Below are positions 6,620 to 15,776 of a DNA stretch of 38,959 nucleotides, piece after piece. Origin of the DNA: Euzebyales bacterium (GTDB lineage Bacteria; Actinomycetota; Nitriliruptoria; Euzebyales; JAHELV01); assembly GCA_036374135.1 (NCBI GenBank), contig DASUUK010000097.1, positions 1-38,959 of the forward strand, written 5' to 3'. Positions within the stretch are counted from its first letter, which is position 1; each line of letters starts with the position of its first letter. Both the position numbers and the translations under genes were made by a program. The notes beneath the pieces were generated by a model. That model did no database searches. It was not told the DNA's origin and was given only the letters and a program-made list of their open reading frames with translations.

Positions 6620-7546
6620 TCAGGTGGCGTCCCAGGGGACGTCCGGCGGCGCGTCGCCGTCGCCGACCGGCGGCACGCCGTCGCCGGCCGGGCACAGTGC
6701 GGTGCACATGCGCGCGTGCAGACCGGTCATGCGGTACGTGCGCAACACCGTCAGGATCTGTTCCGGTGTGGCCGCGCGGCGGGTCGCGTCCAGATCGACC
6801 GGCAGCCCTCGGTCCAACGTCATCAGCTCGACGTTGCGCCGGAACACCGACGTCGGCGACGCCAGATCGTCGATTACGAGCTGGCCGAGCTCCGGTCCCA
6901 GCACACTGCGACAGCCCAGCGGGTCGGCGACCGCCTCCTCGACCGTGGGGTACATCCGCAGCAGATCCGCCGCCTTCTTGGCGCCGATGCCGGCGATGCC
7001 GGGCAGGTTGTCCGACGCGTCCCCACGTATGGCGGCCAGCTGCACGTACTGCTGCGGCGCGATGCGGTACCGACGGCGGAAGTCGCGGGCGGTCACGGTG
7101 CGGATCGGCCGGTGCCCGCCCCGCACCTGCAGCACGCTCGTCCGCCCGCTGACCAGTGCCAGCACGTCACGGTCGGGCGACGCCACGACGCAGCGCCAGG
7201 CGGCGTCCTCCGCCGTCGCGGCGGCCGAGGCGACGACGTCGTCGGCCTCGCAGCCCGGCGCGACGATGACGTGCGCACCCATGTCGGCGGCGATCTGTGG
7301 CAACTCGTCGAGCGAGACGTCCAGCTCGGCGTGCTTGTCCGGGCGCTGTCCCTTGTAGTCGGGGTACGTCGCCCGACGACGCGAGTGCTCGCGGCAGTCG
7401 AAGCCGACCACCAACCCGTCGTAGGTCACCTGGTCGCACACGACCGACAGCAACGCGAAGAAGCCGTACCGAGCGCCGCCCGCAGTGCCGCCGTACGCGT
7501 GGAACGCCCGGTGCACCAGGGCGTTGCCGTCCACGGCGAGCAGCAT
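6620..7546 (-). CDS. Stand-alone 5'-3' exonuclease (PolA N-terminal/FEN-like)
   Basis: A 308-residue protein equivalent to the 5' nuclease domain of DNA polymerase I without the polymerase. Diagnostic motifs appear in order: AVDGNALVHRAFHA at the extreme N-terminus (first metal Asp), DYKGQRPD, the acidic EADDVVASAA, PDRDVLALV, and the helix-3-turn-helix RGDASDNLPGIAGIGAKKA that grips the DNA substrate. The expected role is flap or RNA-primer removal in replication and repair. I start at ATG 7546 because the strong Shine-Dalgarno GAGGTGA lies 8 bases upstream and the domain begins there. A GTG at 7675 overlapping the msrB stop would add 43 low-complexity residues across a GC hairpin. The gene is convergent with the cyclase/ATPase gene, 42 bp away. 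Confidence 0.93.
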   Translation of the reverse strand: MLLAVDGNALVHRAFHAYGGTAGGARYGFFALLSVVCDQVTYDGLVVGFDCREHSRRRATYPDYKGQRPDKHAELDVSLDELPQIAADMGAHVIVAPGCEADDVVASAAATAEDAAWRCVVASPDRDVLALVSGRTSVLQVRGGHRPIRTVTARDFRRRYRIAPQQYVQLAAIRGDASDNLPGIAGIGAKKAADLLRMYPTVEEAVADPLGCRSVLGPELGQLVIDDLASPTSVFRRNVELMTLDRGLPVDLDATRRAATPEQILTVLRTYRMTGLHARMCTALCPAGDGVPPVGDGDAPPDVPWDAT

Positions 7547-8134: not shown

Positions 8135-8755
8135 TCACGCCGCTGCCACGACGGTAACCGGCAGGTTGAACCGGCGCTCCATCTTGGTGTGCAGGTCCGC
8201 CTCGAGCCAGCCCGATTCGGCGCGCGGCAGCGTGGCCAGGAGGATCTCGTCTGCCTTGAAGCGCTTGAGCGCGTCGGACGTGGCCCGCAGCGGATCGGCG
8301 TCCCCGACCGACCCGTCGACGGTCAGCCCGACGTCGCGCAGCCGCCCCAGCGCCTCGTTGAGCCGATATGTGGCCAGCGTCCGGCCGGGCAGATCACCCT
8401 CGGCGGGGTGAGCGACCTCACCGACCGTTTCGAACCATGCGTGCTCGCCCGCGACCGGCGTTGAGCGCACGGCGGGGACCACCAGGTGGTACTCCACGTC
8501 ACCGGACCGCCCGGTCATCGCCTCCTGCAGGCGCTGCGCGCGCAGGACGGCGTTGCCCACCACCAGCACCTTGCGCCGCCGCATCTGCGTGTCCTCGACG
8601 AAGTCGCTGTACAGCGGACGTTGCTGCTTGGCGCCCCCGTACCGGATGGGCGCGACGGACTGCGGGTCGACCATGTGCTCGGAGGTGAGGTGGTAGTTGA
8701 GCTCGGTCTCGTTGCGGAAGCGCAGTTCGCAGCGGGGGCATTGGTGGACGGACAT
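8135..8755 (-). CDS. C2H2 zinc finger fused to Usp-like domain
   Basis: A 206-residue protein with an unusual architecture. Residues 6-27 are a textbook C2H2 finger (C6-x2-C9-x12-H22-x4-H27, with Phe13 and Leu19 at the core positions). A short linker leads to a Rossmann-like domain (about 66-206) resembling universal-stress or permease-tail domains: [12 protein letters not shown], a Val-Gly-Asp-Ala-Asp-Pro step, [18 protein letters not shown] and a final NLPVTVV strand. No membrane segment is seen. The finger could bind nucleic acid or protein and the Usp-like part could sense nucleotides; both are guesses. ATG 8755 has GAAGGAGA upstream. The gene diverges from the GNAT gene and lies 55 bp upstream of msrB. 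Confidence 0.8.
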
Positions 8756-8867
8756 GCCGGTCGGTCTCCTTCGCTGAGCCGCGCCTTGGCGCGGCGTTCG
8801 CCCTCACGATAGCCAACCGGAACCAGAACTTGCGTTCGCGTCCACGGCAGCCCACACTCGGCCGTCG

Positions 8868-9668
8868 ATGGATGACGTCCAGATCGACGCCGTTGACGAC
8901 CCGGACTCGTGTCGGATCGCCGAGGACATCCAGCGTCGTGCATGGGGCATGTCCGACCGTGGGGTGGTGCCCGCCGAACAGATCCGCGCCGCCGTGCACA
9001 ACGGCGGTCTGCTGCTCATCGCACGCGGCGACGGCGAGCCCATCGGCTTCTGCTACGGGTTCGTCGGCCTCGACGGTCACACGCCCATCCTGTGCTCGCA
9101 CATGCTCGCCGTCGTCCCCGGCATGCAGTCGCGCGGCATCGGTCAGGCGCTCAAGATGGCCCAGCGGCGCCACGCCGCCGCGCGCGGCTTCGAGCGCATC
9201 ACGTGGACGTTCGATCCGCTGCAGGCGCGCAATGCGTACCTGAACCTGCACCGGCTCGGCGCCGTCGCACGCCACTACCACGTCGATCACTACGGTCCCA
9301 TGGACGACGCGATCAACGCCGGGCTGCCGACCGACCGCCTGCTCGCGGAGTGGTGGGTCGACAGCGACCGCGCAGTGCCCGCCGAGGTTCCGGACGGACC
9401 GTGGGCGCTGTCGTGCGTGCCGGGAGCCGATGGCGCACCGCGTCCCGGTCCGGTCATCCCGGACGCCCTGGACGGCGACGCGGCGCTGGTGGCCGTGCCG
9501 GCCGACTTCGATCGCCTCCGACGCGTTGATCCGGCGGCGGGCCCGGCCTGGCGCAGCGCCCTGCGCGCCGCGCTGTCTGCCGCCTTCCGGACGGGGATGG
9601 TCGCCGTCGACCTGGCCCGCGACGTCACCGACGACTGCCACGCGTACGTGCTGCGGGTGCAGCCATGA
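8868..9668 (+). CDS. GNAT acyltransferase, probable N-succinyltransferase of D-amino acid conversion
   Basis: A 266-residue GNAT protein of the COG3375 type. The acetyl-CoA-binding region is visible as HMLAVVPGMQSRGIGQALK (about residues 81-99), preceded by the beta-strand IGFCYGF and followed by ITWTFDPLQARNAYLN, a hallmark of this subgroup. The gene overlaps the next one by 4 bases (ATGA) and starts a three-gene run with an enolase-superfamily racemase and an M20 deacylase. In Geobacillus and related bacteria the same trio converts D- to L-amino acids, with the GNAT enzyme N-succinylating D-amino acids. The substrate is inferred from this context. The start ATG 8868 has no clear Shine-Dalgarno; an ATG at 8872 is out of frame. 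Confidence 0.88.
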   Translation: MDDVQIDAVDDPDSCRIAEDIQRRAWGMSDRGVVPAEQIRAAVHNGGLLLIARGDGEPIGFCYGFVGLDGHTPILCSHMLAVVPGMQSRGIGQALKMAQRRHAAARGFERITWTFDPLQARNAYLNLHRLGAVARHYHVDHYGPMDDAINAGLPTDRLLAEWWVDSDRAVPAEVPDGPWALSCVPGADGAPRPGPVIPDALDGDAALVAVPADFDRLRRVDPAAGPAWRSALRAALSAAFRTGMVAVDLARDVTDDCHAYVLRVQP

Positions 9669-10807
9669 CCGCCCTGCGCGTCGACCGTGTGGAGCTCGTG
9701 TTCCTGACGCTGCCACTGCGCCACCCGTTCGTCACGAGCTTCGGACCGCAGCTCGAGCGCGACGTCGTGCTCGTACGGGTGCGCGCCGACGGCGTGGACG
9801 GGTGGGGTGAACTGGTCGCCGGCCGTGATCCCGTGTACAGCGAGGAGACGGTCGCCGGTGCGGTGACGGTCATGCGCGACCACCTGCTGCCGCGGATCCT
9901 CGGTCACACGGTCGACGATCCGCGGACGGTCGGTGACCGCTGGGCGAAGGTCCGCGGCAACCCCATGGCCCGGGCCGCCATCGAGATGGCCGTGTGGGAC
10001 ACCTGGTCGGCCGCGACCGGTCGATCGCTCGCCGCGGTGCTCGGCGGCACGAGGGCGGCCGTGCCGGCCGGTGTCAGCATCGGCATCGCCGACTCGACCG
10101 CGGCGCTGCTGGACCGCGTGGCGTCCTTCGTGGACCAGGGCTACGCCCGCATCAAGCTCAAGATCGCGCCGGGCACCGACGTCGAGCGCGTTGCCGCGGT
10201 GCGCGAGCGGTTCGCCGACGTGGCGCTGATGGCCGACGCGAACTCCGCGTACACGCTGGACGACGCCGACCACCTCCGGCGGCTCGACGCGTTCGACCTC
10301 ACGATGATCGAACAGCCGCTGGCCCACGACGACATCATCGACCACGCCAGCCTCGCGCCGCGGCTGCGGACGCCGTTGTGCCTGGACGAGTCGATCCGGT
10401 CGACCGCCGACGCACGGCGCGCGGCGTCGATCGGCGCCTGCGCGATCATCAACTGCAAGCCGGGCAGGCTCGGTGGCCTGGCCGAGTCCCTGGCGCTCCA
10501 CGACTGGGCGGTCACGGAGGGGATGCCGCTGTGGGTCGGCGGCATGCTCGAGACGGGCATCGGCCGCCTCCACAACATCGCCCTGGCCAGCCTCCCCGGG
10601 TTCACACTGCCCGGCGACACGTCCGCCAGCGACCGCTACTGGGAGCGCGACATCATCGAGCCGGCCGTCACGCTCGCACCGGACGGCACCGTCGAGGTGC
10701 CCGATGCGGCGGGCGTCGATGCGGTGGTCGACCACGACCGCCTCGACGCGGTGGTCGTCCACCGCGAGGTGTTCGACGCCACCGACGGCGTGGTGGCTGG
10801 CCGATGA
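9665..10807 (+). CDS. N-succinylamino acid racemase / o-succinylbenzoate synthase family
   Basis: A 380-residue member of the enolase superfamily (muconate-lactonizing subgroup, MenC/NSAR branch). All expected residues are present: K164-x-K166 (RIKLKI), metal ligands D191 (ADAN), E216 (IEQPL) and D241 (LDES), and the general base K265 (NCKPGRLGG), followed by GGMLETGIG. The numbering is almost identical to characterised NSAR proteins. The branch includes both o-succinylbenzoate synthase of menaquinone synthesis and N-succinylamino acid racemase, often with both activities. No other men gene is nearby, whereas a GNAT gene and an M20 hydrolase overlap this gene by 4 bases on each side, so racemase is the likelier main role. 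Start ATG 9665 is fixed by the ATGA overlap. Confidence 0.92.
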   Translation: MTALRVDRVELVFLTLPLRHPFVTSFGPQLERDVVLVRVRADGVDGWGELVAGRDPVYSEETVAGAVTVMRDHLLPRILGHTVDDPRTVGDRWAKVRGNPMARAAIEMAVWDTWSAATGRSLAAVLGGTRAAVPAGVSIGIADSTAALLDRVASFVDQGYARIKLKIAPGTDVERVAAVRERFADVALMADANSAYTLDDADHLRRLDAFDLTMIEQPLAHDDIIDHASLAPRLRTPLCLDESIRSTADARRAASIGACAIINCKPGRLGGLAESLALHDWAVTEGMPLWVGGMLETGIGRLHNIALASLPGFTLPGDTSASDRYWERDIIEPAVTLAPDGTVEVPDAAGVDAVVDHDRLDAVVVHREVFDATDGVVAGR

Positions 10808-11952
10808 CCCTGCTGGACGACCTCACCGCCCAGACCGACGCGATGGTCGACGAACTGCGCGAAGTGGTGCTCCACGAGTCACCCACGGGCGACGTCGACC
10901 GGCTCGACACACTCGCCGGTGTGCTGGCCGGGCGGTGGCGGGAGGCCGGCGCGACCGTGGAGGGACACCGTGTCGACGGGGTGGGCACCCACCTCGAGCT
11001 GCGCTGGGCCGGTCCACCCGGCACACCCGCCGACGCGGCACCCGTGCTGCTGGTGGGCCACTACGACACCGTCCACGACGTCGGGACGTTGCAGCGCAAC
11101 CCGTGGCGGGTCGACGACGAGCGACGCGCGTGGGGCCCGGGCACGCAGGACATGAAGGCGGGTCTGGTGATCGCCAGACGCGCCCTGGCGCAGCTGCACT
11201 CCACGGGCACGCCGGCCCGTCGGCCCGTCGTGGCGCTCGTGACCGCCGACGAGGAGGTCGGCAGCATCACATCGTCGGCGCTGATCCGGGACCGTGCGCG
11301 CACGAGCGCGGCCGCGCTGGTGTTCGAGGCGAGCACGTCGGCCGGTGCGCTCAAGACCGAGCGCAAGGGCGTGGGCCTGTGGACCGTCGCCACGCACGGG
11401 CGCGCCGCCCACGCGGGCCAGCGGTTCTTCGACGGGCGCAACGCCATCGTCGCGTTGGCGCGGCTGTTGCCACGCATCGCCGGGCTCAGCGACGAGGCGC
11501 GTGGCACCACCGTCAACATCGGCACCGTGCGGGGTGGCACACGGGCCAATGTCGTCGCGGCACACGCCCAGGCGGTCATCGATGTGCGGTTCACCGACCC
11601 CGACGAAGCCGAGCGCGTGGGGCTCGCGTTGGAGGACCTGCAGGCCGATGACGACGTCGCCGTCACCGTCGATGGCGGTGTCAACCGACCGGCGATGCTC
11701 CGCTCGTCGGCGACCGATGACCTGTACGCACGTGCTCGCGCGTGCGCGCAGCGGCTTGGGTTCGACCTGACGCAGGCCTCCGCGGGCGGCGCGAGTGACG
11801 GCAACTTCACGGCCGACGAAGGCACCCCGACGCTCGACGGCCTGGGCGGCATCGGCGACGGTCTGCACACCGACCACGAGTGGGTGCACGTCGACTCGCT
11901 GCCACAGCGTGCGGCACTGCTCGCCGAGCTGCTGTCCGCCCCCGACGACTGA
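10804..11952 (+). CDS. M20 metallopeptidase, probable N-succinyl-L-amino acid desuccinylase
   Basis: A 382-residue M20 hydrolase of the carboxypeptidase G2/ArgE type. The two-zinc site is visible: GHYDTV (His ligand), GPGTQDMKAG (bridging Asp), DEEVGS (catalytic Glu and ligand Glu), the dimerisation-domain HGRAAHAG segment, and a C-terminal GDGLHTDHEW (final His). The start ATG 10804 overlaps the racemase stop (ATGA), so the genes are probably translationally coupled. In the known D-to-L pathway, an M20 enzyme specific for the L-enantiomer removes the succinyl group and makes the conversion irreversible; that assignment here rests on context. This is the last gene of the run; about 308 bp without a convincing gene follow. 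Confidence 0.92.
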   Translation: MTLLDDLTAQTDAMVDELREVVLHESPTGDVDRLDTLAGVLAGRWREAGATVEGHRVDGVGTHLELRWAGPPGTPADAAPVLLVGHYDTVHDVGTLQRNPWRVDDERRAWGPGTQDMKAGLVIARRALAQLHSTGTPARRPVVALVTADEEVGSITSSALIRDRARTSAAALVFEASTSAGALKTERKGVGLWTVATHGRAAHAGQRFFDGRNAIVALARLLPRIAGLSDEARGTTVNIGTVRGGTRANVVAAHAQAVIDVRFTDPDEAERVGLALEDLQADDDVAVTVDGGVNRPAMLRSSATDDLYARARACAQRLGFDLTQASAGGASDGNFTADEGTPTLDGLGGIGDGLHTDHEWVHVDSLPQRAALLAELLSAPDD

Positions 11953-12062
11953 GCCGCCGCTGTGGTGGTGGTGACCCGCCGGACGGAACCCCCTGCTGTC
12001 ACCCGCGCCCCGGGCGACGATTGCCGGCGATGCCCTTCGCTTGAGTGGAGAAACGTCGGGGC

Positions 12063-12170
12063 GGTGGGCAACTTCACGGAGCCTTCCACGAAACACGCGA
12101 GCAGCGCAGTCGCTGCGCTCCGGCGCCGCGAACGGATCATGACCGGCCGGATGCGGCACAGTTGCCCGCC
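12063..12170 (+). other. Possible structured RNA leader upstream of the tandem membrane genes
   Basis: The 308-bp gap 11953-12260 holds no convincing gene. Within it, GGTGGGCAACT (12063-12073) can pair with AGTTGCCCGCC (12160-12170), 11 pairs with one G-U, enclosing a perfect 7-bp hairpin AGCGCAG-TCG-CTGCGCT (12103-12119). A further inverted repeat ACCACC-GA-GGTGGT lies at 12209-12222, just before the gene start at 12261. I could not match it to a known riboswitch class. In such GC-rich DNA some pairing is expected by chance. Confidence 0.3.
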
Positions 12171-12260
12171 CCGCCGCAGGTTGCGGGCAGCACCATCGCG
12201 GAAAGAAGACCACCGAGGTGGTTTCATGGCGGTCAACGGCGTGATCGCGAAAGGTGTCGG

Positions 12261-12710
12261 ATGGGCAACACCCTGGTGGTGTCGGTGCTCTACATCGTCG
12301 TCGCCGTCACGCTGACGATCTGGCTGGCGACCACCCTGTACCGCAACGGACTCGAACTGCTCCGGCAACGCGACGACCAGCAACCGCTGCTCGCTCAGGC
12401 CACCAGCCGGCTGCTGGTGATCGGCTTCGCGCTGTTCACGCTCGGCTACGCGTTCCTCCTGCTGCGCGTCGAGGGCCCGATGGACAGCATCGACGCACTG
12501 GAGTTCCTCGTCCGACGCCTGGGCATCCTGCTGGTCAGCCTCGGCCTGCTGCACCAGCTCAGCACGCTGATCTTCCTGCGCTTCCGTCGATCGCGCAACG
12601 AGGAGGCCGATGCGGAACGCCGCGCGGGTCGCCGCGCGGGACGGCGGAGCGCCTCGACGCCCAGTGACGAGACGCCGAGCGAGCAGGCGGCGCGACGGCG
12701 CGGCCGATGA
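12261..12710 (+). CDS. Small membrane protein, first of a paralogous pair
   Basis: A 149-residue protein with about three transmembrane segments: an N-terminal helix (LVVSVLYIVVAVTLTIWLA), a middle one (LLVIGFALFTLGYAFLLL) and a third (RLGILLVSLGLLHQLSTLIF). A basic and acidic, probably cytoplasmic tail rich in Arg, Glu and Ser follows. It is similar along its whole membrane part to the next gene; shared patterns include LYRNG/LHRDG, SRLL[VI], GYA[FL]LLL, RR[LF]G[IL]LL and LSLG. Similar tandem membrane proteins occur in other actinobacteria as uncharacterised proteins. ATG 12261 is preceded by AAGGTG at good spacing. It overlaps the next gene by 4 bases. No function can be named. Confidence 0.8.
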   Translation: MGNTLVVSVLYIVVAVTLTIWLATTLYRNGLELLRQRDDQQPLLAQATSRLLVIGFALFTLGYAFLLLRVEGPMDSIDALEFLVRRLGILLVSLGLLHQLSTLIFLRFRRSRNEEADAERRAGRRAGRRSASTPSDETPSEQAARRRGR

Positions 12711-13114
12711 ACGGCGCGATCGCGGTCTACGTGGTGTACGTGCTGCTCGCCATCGCGTTGATCACGTGGATGGGGATCCTGCTGCACCGCGACGGACAGA
12801 TCTTCCTCCACGACGTGTTCCGCAGCCAGACGGACCTCGCGGCGTATGTGAGCCGCCTGCTCGTCACCGGGTTCCTCGTGTTCACCGTCGGGTACGCGCT
12901 GCTGCTGCTGGACATCGACACCAACGCGACGGCGCTGTCGGCCCTGCGCTCGTCCGTCCGGCGCTTCGGCCTGCTGCTGCTGAGCCTCGGCGCGATGCAC
13001 TCACTCAACATGCTGATCCTGCTACAGGTCCGGCGACGTGCGGTCAACCGCCATGCCGCGACGGCGGGGCGCGGCAGCGAGCCCGTGCGGCGGACGCGCC
13101 TGTCGGACCGCTAG
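12707..13114 (+). CDS. Small membrane protein, second of a paralogous pair
   Basis: A 135-residue protein with three predicted transmembrane segments (AVYVVYVLLAIALITWMGI, LLVTGFLVFTVGYALLLL, FGLLLLSLGAMHSLNMLILL) and a short Arg-rich tail. It is clearly related to the gene before it, and the two overlap by ATGA at 12707, so the products are probably made together and may form a heteromeric membrane complex. The conserved loop after helix 1 (LHRDGQIFLHDVF) is the most distinctive part of the family. No catalytic motif is visible. The function is unknown. Confidence 0.82.
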   Translation: MNGAIAVYVVYVLLAIALITWMGILLHRDGQIFLHDVFRSQTDLAAYVSRLLVTGFLVFTVGYALLLLDIDTNATALSALRSSVRRFGLLLLSLGAMHSLNMLILLQVRRRAVNRHAATAGRGSEPVRRTRLSDR

Positions 13115-13303: not shown

Positions 13304-13413
13304 AGCGAACCAACCCGCGCCTCTTCTCAGGCATGGTGTTGGTTCGCGGTTTCGACGACTACGGGATAGCGTTGCGCCTCATGGTGGATTCTGCCGCTCC
13401 AAGTGGAACACGC

Positions 13414-14643
13414 ATGCTGATGCCATCGACGGCATGGACGCCGGCGATGATCCACGACCACGCGGTAGCCCTGCGCGACAAGCTGGTGCGGCACCGTCGG
13501 CAGCTGCACCGCCACCCGGAGCTTGCCTGGTGCGAGCACCGCACCGCCGCCTATGTCGAGTCGGTCCTGTCGAACCTCGGCATCGAGCACCGCCGCGTGT
13601 GCGGCACCGGCGTGGTGGCGGTCATCGAGGGCCGCGGCGGGCGCTGCGTCGGCGTGCGTGCCGACATGGACGCGCTGCCGGTGACCGAGGCGCCGGGGCG
13701 CGACGGGTACCGGTCCGACAACGAGGGCGTCTCCCACGCGTGCGGCCACGACGCGCACGTGGCGTGCGTGCTCGGCCTGGCCGAGCTCCTCGCCGGACAG
13801 GCCGAGCTGCCCGGCAGCGTCGTCCTGTACTTCCAGCCGGCCGAGGAGGGCGGCGGCGGTGCCGAGCCGATGGTCGCCGACGGCGTGCTCGACGACCCGA
13901 CACCGGACGCGATCCTGGCGCTGCACACCGCGAGCAACCACCGCGCCGGCACGGTCGCGCTGCGCAGCGGTCCGGTCACGGGCGCGGTCGACGACATCAC
14001 GATCACGATCCACGGCATCGACGGGCACGCCGCGCATCCCGACCGCGCGATCGACCCGATCCCCGTCGCGGCCATCCTGATCACCAACGCGCAGCAGATC
14101 GTCACCCGTGAGATCGACCCGCTGAAGCCCGCGGTCATCACGTTCGGGTCGATCCACGGCGGCACCCGCCACAACGTCATCGCCTCGAGCGTGACGCTGG
14201 AGGCGACCTTGCGTTCGCTGTACCCCGACACCCGGGCGTACCTCATCGAGCGCATCCAGCAGATCGCGCACGCGATCGCGTCGGCCAACCGCACGTCGGC
14301 GACCGTCTCGATCCAGAACGGCTACCCCGCCGGCTACAACGACACGGCGCTGACGCGCATGGTCCATGCCGCCGCCAGGTCGATCTGCGGCGAGGACTGC
14401 GTGGCCGTCGAAGAGCACCCGTCGATGGGTGCCGAGGACTTCTTCGCGTTCGGCAGCACGGGCATTCCCGTGTGCATGTTCCGCCTCGGTGTCAGCAACC
14501 CGTCGCGCGGCATCACGGCGGCGCATCACAGCGCCCACTTCGACATCGACGAGTCGGCCCTCCCGGTCGGGGTCGCGGTGTTCGCCGAGTCGATCCGGCG
14601 TCTGCTGACGACCGAGGCGCTGTCGTCGATCGCACCTGACTAG
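13414..14643 (+). CDS. M20 family amidohydrolase (hippurate/indole-amide hydrolase-like)
   Basis: A 409-residue metal-dependent amidohydrolase of the M20D type, which cleaves N-acyl amino acids or similar amides. Visible motifs are RQLHRHPELAW, VRADMDALPV (metal-side Asp), HACGHDAH (Cys and His ligands), FQPAEEGGGGAE (catalytic and ligand Glu), GHAAHP in the dimerisation domain, HGGTRHNVI, and the C-terminal HHSAHFDIDE. The start is uncertain: ATG 13414 has AAGTGGAA just upstream, while ATGs at 13333 and 13381 give extra N-terminal residues without family resemblance. The roughly 300-bp stretch before the gene carries the palindrome at 13281-13303. The gene is followed after 29 bp by a carboxylate-amine ligase. 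The substrate is unknown. Confidence 0.93.
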   Translation: MLMPSTAWTPAMIHDHAVALRDKLVRHRRQLHRHPELAWCEHRTAAYVESVLSNLGIEHRRVCGTGVVAVIEGRGGRCVGVRADMDALPVTEAPGRDGYRSDNEGVSHACGHDAHVACVLGLAELLAGQAELPGSVVLYFQPAEEGGGGAEPMVADGVLDDPTPDAILALHTASNHRAGTVALRSGPVTGAVDDITITIHGIDGHAAHPDRAIDPIPVAAILITNAQQIVTREIDPLKPAVITFGSIHGGTRHNVIASSVTLEATLRSLYPDTRAYLIERIQQIAHAIASANRTSATVSIQNGYPAGYNDTALTRMVHAAARSICGEDCVAVEEHPSMGAEDFFAFGSTGIPVCMFRLGVSNPSRGITAAHHSAHFDIDESALPVGVAVFAESIRRLLTTEALSSIAPD

Positions 14644-14672
14644 TCCCCACGCCGCCCGGGCAGGCTGGCCGG

Positions 14673-15776
14673 GTGACCGACCACCTGACCCTCGGCGTGG
14701 AGGAGGAGTTCCACGTCGCCGATGCCGCCTCGCGGATGCTGCTGCACGACAGCGACGTGCTGCTGGACGACCTCGACCGTGACGGCTTCGAGCCGGAGCA
14801 GTTCGAGAGCGAGATCTACCTGTCGATGGTCGAGACCGGCTCGGTCGTGTGCACCACGCTGGACGAGATCCGCGAGCAGCTGACCGCACTGCGCCGCGAG
14901 CTGTGCGGGACGGCGAACCGGCACGGCATGCGGGTGCTCGCCGCCGGCACGATGCCGTTGGCGCGGGGCCGGCTGCAGCAGATCACCCCGAAGCCCCGCT
15001 ACCGCGACATCGAACGGGCCCACCAGCAGGTCAGCCGCGAGATGATGGCGTGCGGCATGCACGTGCACGTCGGCGTGCCCGACCGTGAGGAGGCCGTCCA
15101 GATCCTCAACCAGGTGCGTCCATACCTGTCCGCACTGCTGGCGCTGAGCGCGAACTCACCGTTCTGGGACACGCACGACACGGGGTACGCCAGCTACCGC
15201 AGCATCCTGTGGGGCCGTTGGCCGAGCGCCGCGATCCCGCAGACATTCGCGAGCATCGAGGAGTACGACGCGGTCGGGCGGATGCTGATCGACTCGGGTG
15301 CCATCATCGACCTCGGCCAGATCTACTGGGACATGCGCCTGTCGCAGGACAATCCCACGCTGGAGTTTAGGGTGTCCGACGTCTGCATGACCGTCGACGA
15401 GGCCGTGCTGCAGGCCGGGTTGTGCCGCGCGCTGGTGCACCTGGGCCGCGAACGCGTCAGCCGTGGCCTGCCGCCGCCGGGCGTGCGCGCCGAGCTGCTG
15501 CAGGCCGCCAAGTGGCGCGCCGCACGGTTCGGGCTCGAGGATCAGCTGTTCGATCCGCTCACGCGCGAGGTGCTGGCGCCGCGGGACTACTTCGCACGAC
15601 TCATCGACGAGCTCCGTGATGCACTGGACGTCGAGGGCGACACCGAGCAGGTGTGCGAGCTGATCGACCATGCGCTCTGCGACGGGTCGGGCGCGCGACG
15701 CCAGCGCAGCGCGTTCGCGACGGCGGGGCGCCTGGAGGACACCGTCGACCTGATCGCCGCGGCGACCTGCTCGTAG
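14673..15776 (+). CDS. YbdK-type carboxylate-amine ligase (glutamate-cysteine ligase family 2)
   Basis: A 367-residue member of the GCS2 family, ATP-dependent enzymes joining a carboxylate to an amine, including weak gamma-glutamylcysteine ligases. The N-terminal LTLGVEEEFHVAD is the family signature with its ATP/metal acidic residues. Further motifs are FESEIYLSMVET, GMHVHVGVPD, LLALSANSPFW, YRSILWGRWP and TLEFRVSDVC. The length is normal. The start is GTG 14673, directly upstream of the signature; an AGG-rich stretch precedes it. It lies 29 bp after the M20 amidohydrolase and probably shares its transcript, which hints at amide-bond chemistry on one substrate, though this is not proven. The gene ends before a hairpin that separates it from a convergent gene. 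Confidence 0.93.
   Translation: MTDHLTLGVEEEFHVADAASRMLLHDSDVLLDDLDRDGFEPEQFESEIYLSMVETGSVVCTTLDEIREQLTALRRELCGTANRHGMRVLAAGTMPLARGRLQQITPKPRYRDIERAHQQVSREMMACGMHVHVGVPDREEAVQILNQVRPYLSALLALSANSPFWDTHDTGYASYRSILWGRWPSAAIPQTFASIEEYDAVGRMLIDSGAIIDLGQIYWDMRLSQDNPTLEFRVSDVCMTVDEAVLQAGLCRALVHLGRERVSRGLPPPGVRAELLQAAKWRAARFGLEDQLFDPLTREVLAPRDYFARLIDELRDALDVEGDTEQVCELIDHALCDGSGARRQRSAFATAGRLEDTVDLIAAATCS

Follow-up and report, generated by a model that had tools for sequence, protein, structure and literature searches.

Three genes follow one another in the 38,959-nucleotide stretch of DNA analyzed here (the window), encoding in order a GNAT-family acyltransferase, an NSAR/OSBS-family protein, and an M20-family metallohydrolase, so that a gene for each enzyme of a three-enzyme pathway lies beside the next (Table 1). 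A sequence-only reading of this DNA had proposed this gene order with two 4-base overlaps, and the coordinates and both overlaps bear it out. A scan of positions 8700 to 12200 for promoters and terminators found none. The same trio occurs in the same order in a same-genus relative (locus L008, whose contig matches that of genome G027 in length, at 35,076 bases each; the two appear to be one record and are counted once), with 65, 78, and 72% identity for the GNAT, racemase, and M20 proteins, respectively; there, a gap replaces the second overlap, with the racemase ORF ending at 6928 and the M20 ORF starting at 6996. Because this relative keeps the same genes in the same order, the three-gene arrangement is not a product of chance.

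Table 1. Genes and gene overlaps of the three-gene locus, in window positions
Feature	Position	Strand	Details
GNAT-family acyltransferase, proposed D-amino acid N-acyltransferase	8868-9668	+	266 aa ORF
NSAR/OSBS-family N-acylamino acid racemase	9665-10807	+	380 aa ORF
M20-family metallohydrolase, carboxypeptidase G2-like, proposed N-acyl-L-amino acid deacylase	10804-11952	+	382 aa ORF
ATGA overlap, GNAT stop/racemase start	9665-9668	+	read directly
ATGA overlap, racemase stop/M20 start	10804-10807	+	read directly

The middle protein scores 337.5 bits against TIGR01928, the NCBIfam o-succinylbenzoate synthase model (curated cut-off 200.65), and the solved structures nearest to it carry the name N-acylamino acid racemase (1r0m, 2zc8, and 1sja). 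The best of them is 1r0m (E = 2.3e-110); homology to 1r0m and 1sja, which we take to be from Deinococcus radiodurans and Amycolatopsis, extends over the full length (372.6 and 341.2 bits, respectively). The enolase-superfamily residues proposed earlier, K164, K166, D191, E216, D241, and K265, are all found at exactly those positions, and the same K/K/D/E/D/K set is present in 57 of 59 racemase-family stretches, the other two being cut by contig ends. The NSAR/OSBS subfamily is marked by an arginine (R266) three residues after the second catalytic lysine, which is R268 in the window racemase. Across the 59 stretches, this position holds arginine in 56 and methionine in one (L103, where GNAT was not found) and is cut in two; in an alignment, the source genome's own MenC has no arginine there. 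Acylation followed by racemization by an enolase-superfamily enzyme also characterizes the DgcN/DgcA route for D-glutamate. The window racemase scores 113.8 bits against the model of the N-acetyl-D-glutamate racemase DgcA, NF042940, below its cut-off of 400. Among the racemase-family members without a GNAT match are L103 7449-8564 (+), L104 7013-8146 (+), and L106 7205-8272 (-), in all of which S138 is replaced by V or A, with R268 replaced by M in L103; to judge from their sequences, these three possibly have a different function.

The first protein matches generic acetyltransferase models only among the Pfam and NCBIfam profiles (PF00583, 32.4 bits; cut-off 20.7). It carries the acyl-CoA motif of the GNAT superfamily, Q/RxxGxG/A, as Q87-S-R-G90-I-G92, and G90 and G92 are invariant across nine aligned GNAT sequences. 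By sequence, no solved close relative was found at E 0.001. An AlphaFold model built with nine sequences (mean pLDDT 81, pTM 0.70) places the GNAT domain at approximately residues 3 to 164, with a C-terminal extension beyond, and a structure search with this model retrieved generic GNATs over residues ≈1 to 170; the best fold match is 5isv (Z = 14.4, 146 residues, rmsd 2.8), and the closest folds are acetyltransferases. The window GNAT is 30 to 33% identical, over most of its length, to GNATs whose genes neighbor menC on plasmids of Lysinibacillus and Priestia, and it is solely through these Bacillota plasmid relatives that likeness to the Geobacillus enzymes was gauged.

Linkage of the first two genes was examined in 66 genomes of the window's class (racemase at E 1e-40, GNAT alignment A3 at E 1e-15), a sample in which a missing GNAT or M20 is weaker evidence than a detected one since the searches scored limited first-look candidates. 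The racemase is present in 34 of these genomes and GNAT in 35, including all 34 with the racemase, and 31 have neither. In the sole genome with GNAT only (G050), the contig ends inside a racemase fragment. In 31 of the 34 racemase genomes, GNAT and racemase share a strand and are no more than 3 kb apart, usually with fewer than 100 bases between them. The racemase of G024 is divided between two contigs, with GNAT beside one piece, and the two genes are on different contigs in G020 and G030.

The pairing extends beyond the class. In a phylum sample of 197 genomes of completeness at least 90 (racemase A1 at E 1e-70), the racemase occurs in 36 genomes, eight of them from the window's class, and GNAT in 32, all of which have the racemase. 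Of the 37 racemase genes, 33 have a GNAT gene no more than 3 kb away and in the same orientation, upstream in 31. Fisher tests of co-occurrence give p = 5e-18 for the class and 8e-33 for the phylum, values that overstate independence because the genomes are related by descent. Four genomes have a racemase-family member without a GNAT match: the contig is 3274 bases long in G117, and G080, G156, and G183 hold the most divergent members (39-43% identity). One 9.7-Mb genome (G178) carries two separate GNAT-racemase pairs (L107 and L108), one of which adjoins a relative of a PucR-like regulator. Sixteen named loci were found by their GNAT; a racemase lies in the stretch at 11, together with an M20 gene at two, and no racemase match was found within the stretch at the other five (L014, L015, L018, L022, and L023), of which L022 and L023 match GNAT weakly, over 92 residues.

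Nine annotated plasmid stretches were also viewed, three picked by racemase match and six by GNAT match. In all nine, the racemase is annotated menC and GNAT adjoins it or lies one gene away, and an M20-type gene is present within about 4 kb in six. Plasmids of Deinococcus, Bacillota, and Sulfitobacter are among those with such pairs. In all, the GNAT-racemase pairing is seen in Actinomycetota, Deinococcota, Bacillota, and one Alphaproteobacterium. Genes near the pair include a POT-type peptide transporter (PF00854) in Microbacterium (L016), amino acid ABC transporter genes, by annotation, in Deinococcus and Sulfitobacter, and an amidohydrolase (PRK09061) together with beta-lactamase-fold serine hydrolases in Streptomyces and Arthrobacter. 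The PRK09061 amidohydrolase presumably resembles D-aminoacylases, and these neighbors are suggestive of D-amino acids and peptides.

The third gene is more variable. The window protein matches PF01546 and PF07687, and its best solved relative is carboxypeptidase G2 (1cg2, E = 2.4e-31). None of the NCBIfam models shown is matched above its curated cut-off, the best being PRK07338 (263.7 of 357), and the Gram-positive dapE model gives 67.9 bits where its cut-off is 304. M20 genes of the window type (alignment A2, E 1e-40) were found in 22 of the 66 class genomes, 20 of which have the racemase. Among the 34 racemase genomes of the class, 10 have a window-type M20 gene no more than 3 kb from the racemase and 24 do not, some of these neighborhoods being cut by contig ends; in 14, no M20 of this type was found at E 1e-40. 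Because it is unlinked in 24 and not found in 14, the third step is not tied to the window-type M20 gene.

Gene order and M20 type vary too. The order is GNAT-NSAR-M20 in the window, GNAT-M20-NSAR in G005 and L021, and M20-GNAT-NSAR in G059, G060, and two Streptomyces plasmids, and the M20 of the sister genome G028 shares no more than 44% identity with that of the window and is separated by 812 bases. The linked M20 proteins of Actinomycetota (window, Pseudonocardia, Streptomyces, and Arthrobacter) form one carboxypeptidase G2-like group, 41 to 46% identical to that of the window, whereas those near the pair on the Lysinibacillus and Priestia plasmids are of the TIGR01891 amidohydrolase type and do not belong to the window's subfamily. 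The M20 near the pair in Deinococcus ficus is dipeptidase-like (best PRK06446, under its cut-off). Because the linked M20 type varies between lineages, we treat GNAT and racemase as the core and M20 as exchangeable. The earlier description of a complete three-gene unit thus holds for the window, where the trio is present, but not as a fixed set, given the low rate of close linkage and the different subfamily on two Bacillota plasmids. In class genomes without a linked M20, no obvious deacylase was seen among the annotated neighbors as a conserved non-M20 third gene; the recurrent ones are lgt, DNA ligase, leuA, aldehyde and alcohol dehydrogenases, and DUF2254.

We interpret the operon as probably encoding the known route of N-acylation, racemization, and deacylation of D-amino acids, for salvage or detoxification. 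In the first step, GNAT would acylate a D-amino acid on its amino group, most likely with a succinyl unit donated by succinyl-CoA. The racemase would then interconvert the N-acyl-D- and N-acyl-L-amino acids, with K166 and K265 as an opposed acid/base pair about a metal-bound enediolate and D191, E216, and D241 as metal ligands. Finally, the M20 enzyme would hydrolyze the N-acyl-L form only, and this L-specific hydrolysis would pull the equilibrium toward the free L-amino acid at a cost of one acyl-CoA. We infer from the known families the substrate of each step, the succinyl group, the direction, the L specificity, and the irreversibility.

The model for this reading is the D- to L-amino acid pathway of Geobacillus kaustophilus, reportedly described by Sakai et al. 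in 2006 (Biochemistry 45:4455, a reference listed in PMC8762209), which is said to comprise a succinyl-CoA:D-amino acid N-succinyltransferase, an NSAR, and an N-succinyl-L-amino acid hydrolase. That pathway shares with the window the three enzyme classes, the contiguous genes, and the racemase family, and differs in belonging to another phylum. D. radiodurans likewise has a family GNAT one gene from its menC-annotated racemase gene; unlike in the window, an ABC substrate-binding protein gene lies between the two, and the 13 kb viewed includes no gene annotated as M20. By title, no report of a GNAT-racemase-M20 unit in the window's lineage was found in the open-licence literature. The locus is a well-supported but ordinary member of a known pathway type in a new host lineage. 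In the portions of the literature consulted, NSAR kinetics are tabulated for GkNSAR/OSBS, AmyNSAR, and DrNSAR (PMC8142540), an NSAR has been coupled to the L-succinylase from G. kaustophilus in biocatalysis (PMC7431475), and the evolution of NSAR from OSBS is cited (PMC4139412).

The same three steps could instead use acetyl or another acyl group, with an acetyl-CoA-dependent GNAT, an N-acetylamino acid racemase, and an M20 deacetylase. The generic acetyltransferase matches and folds of the GNAT are consistent with this, as is the dapE score of the M20 protein, which is not specifically desuccinylase-like. We nevertheless consider acetyl unlikely, since the Geobacillus pathway reportedly uses succinyl. 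Kinetic data point the same way: NSAR-family enzymes also racemize N-acetylmethionine, but among the enzymes listed in the tabulated part of PMC8142540, kcat/Km is higher for N-succinyl than for N-acetyl substrates.

A different purpose altogether seems improbable to us, one in which N-acyl-amino acids are made or broken, for instance as an N-acylated product or when cell-wall fragments resembling N-acyl dipeptides are recycled. The racemase would then serve to admit more stereoisomers, and D-amino acids would not be converted to L forms on balance. Such a purpose would fit the often unlinked deacylase, the carboxypeptidases among the M20 relatives, and the peptide transporter near the Microbacterium pair. 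Against it, the nearby deacylase is an M20 in all six plasmid stretches having one, as a cycle of acylation and deacylation predicts. 

There is about an even chance that the true unit consists of two genes, GNAT and racemase, and that non-orthologous replacement has supplied it with deacylases of three or more M20 subfamilies. Modules without a linked deacylase may then depend on one that also serves other pathways of the cell, or N-acylamino acids may be their end product, and in these phyla much of what automatic annotation labels menC through TIGR01928 would be racemase and not a menaquinone enzyme.

Such annotations raise the question of whether the middle enzyme serves menaquinone synthesis. 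The source genome (3.98 Mb in 115 contigs, 96% complete) matches the enolase C-terminal model at E 0.001 in four places: the window gene and one gene each on contigs C10 (dehydratase-like), C45, and C68 (enolase-like by reading). The C45 gene, which scores 378.2 bits against NF002782 (cut-off 288), encodes a dedicated o-succinylbenzoate synthase and is flanked by menD (437 bits) and menA (TIGR00751, 231 bits; cut-off 102). Genes for a MenG/UbiE methyltransferase (TIGR01934, 233 bits; cut-off 158) and an isochorismate synthase (TIGR00543, 278 bits; cut-off 225) are nearby. This MenC shares the superfamily and the kind of catalytic residues of the window racemase and differs from it in subfamily and in its location in a men cluster; the two are 35% identical over 144 residues. 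No men genes were recognized among the ORFs beside the window racemase. MqnC was searched for in the source genome and not found, and the futalosine route was set aside as its menaquinone source. Near the men cluster, an amidohydrolase-family gene (L024 3893-5251, -) overlaps menG; it is weakly deaminase-like, under all specific cut-offs shown.

Across the class, a dedicated MenC scores over the cut-off in 30 of the 34 racemase genomes and in 20 of the 32 without the racemase. The other four racemase genomes (G005, G040, G045, and G063) lack both a MenC over the cut-off and a MenD match at E 1e-40. One of them, G045, has a listed completeness of 98% and carries its GNAT-racemase pair on contig 1 at 201899-203820 (in L072). 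An OSBS role does find some support in the TIGR01928 score, in the menC annotation of relatives, and in the fact that both activities are possible in the family. Enzymes labeled NSAR/OSBS also appear in the list given in PMC8142540. Because a separate men cluster with a dedicated MenC is present in the same genome, the reading of the middle enzyme as only the OSBS for menaquinone, with unrelated neighbors, is rejected as highly improbable, and the GNAT linkage in both samples, the racemase of G045, and the racemase-free genomes with MenC also speak against it. The search for a second menC and other men genes thus showed that the racemase is not the sole OSBS, which, with the widely conserved GNAT-racemase pairing, supports the earlier proposal of a single pathway of three steps.

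The middle enzyme is easily mislabeled as the menaquinone (vitamin K) enzyme MenC. A family GNAT next door combined with a separate MenC elsewhere would provide a genomic rule for telling racemase from OSBS; if it holds, many menC annotations need revision. The locus also points to compact three-enzyme sets with which L-amino acids could be produced from their D forms or from racemates.

Downstream of the operon, two adjacent small membrane proteins (12045-12710 and 12707-13114, with a 4-base overlap) cluster as paralogs; both have relatives in sister genomes, and neither has a Pfam match. Beyond them, a second M20 gene, of the TIGR01891 type (13333-14643), is followed by a GCS2-family ligase gene (PF04107), the two spanning 13333-15776. 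In three sister genomes, this second M20 is 86 to 88% conserved, compared with 44 to 74% for the operon's own M20.
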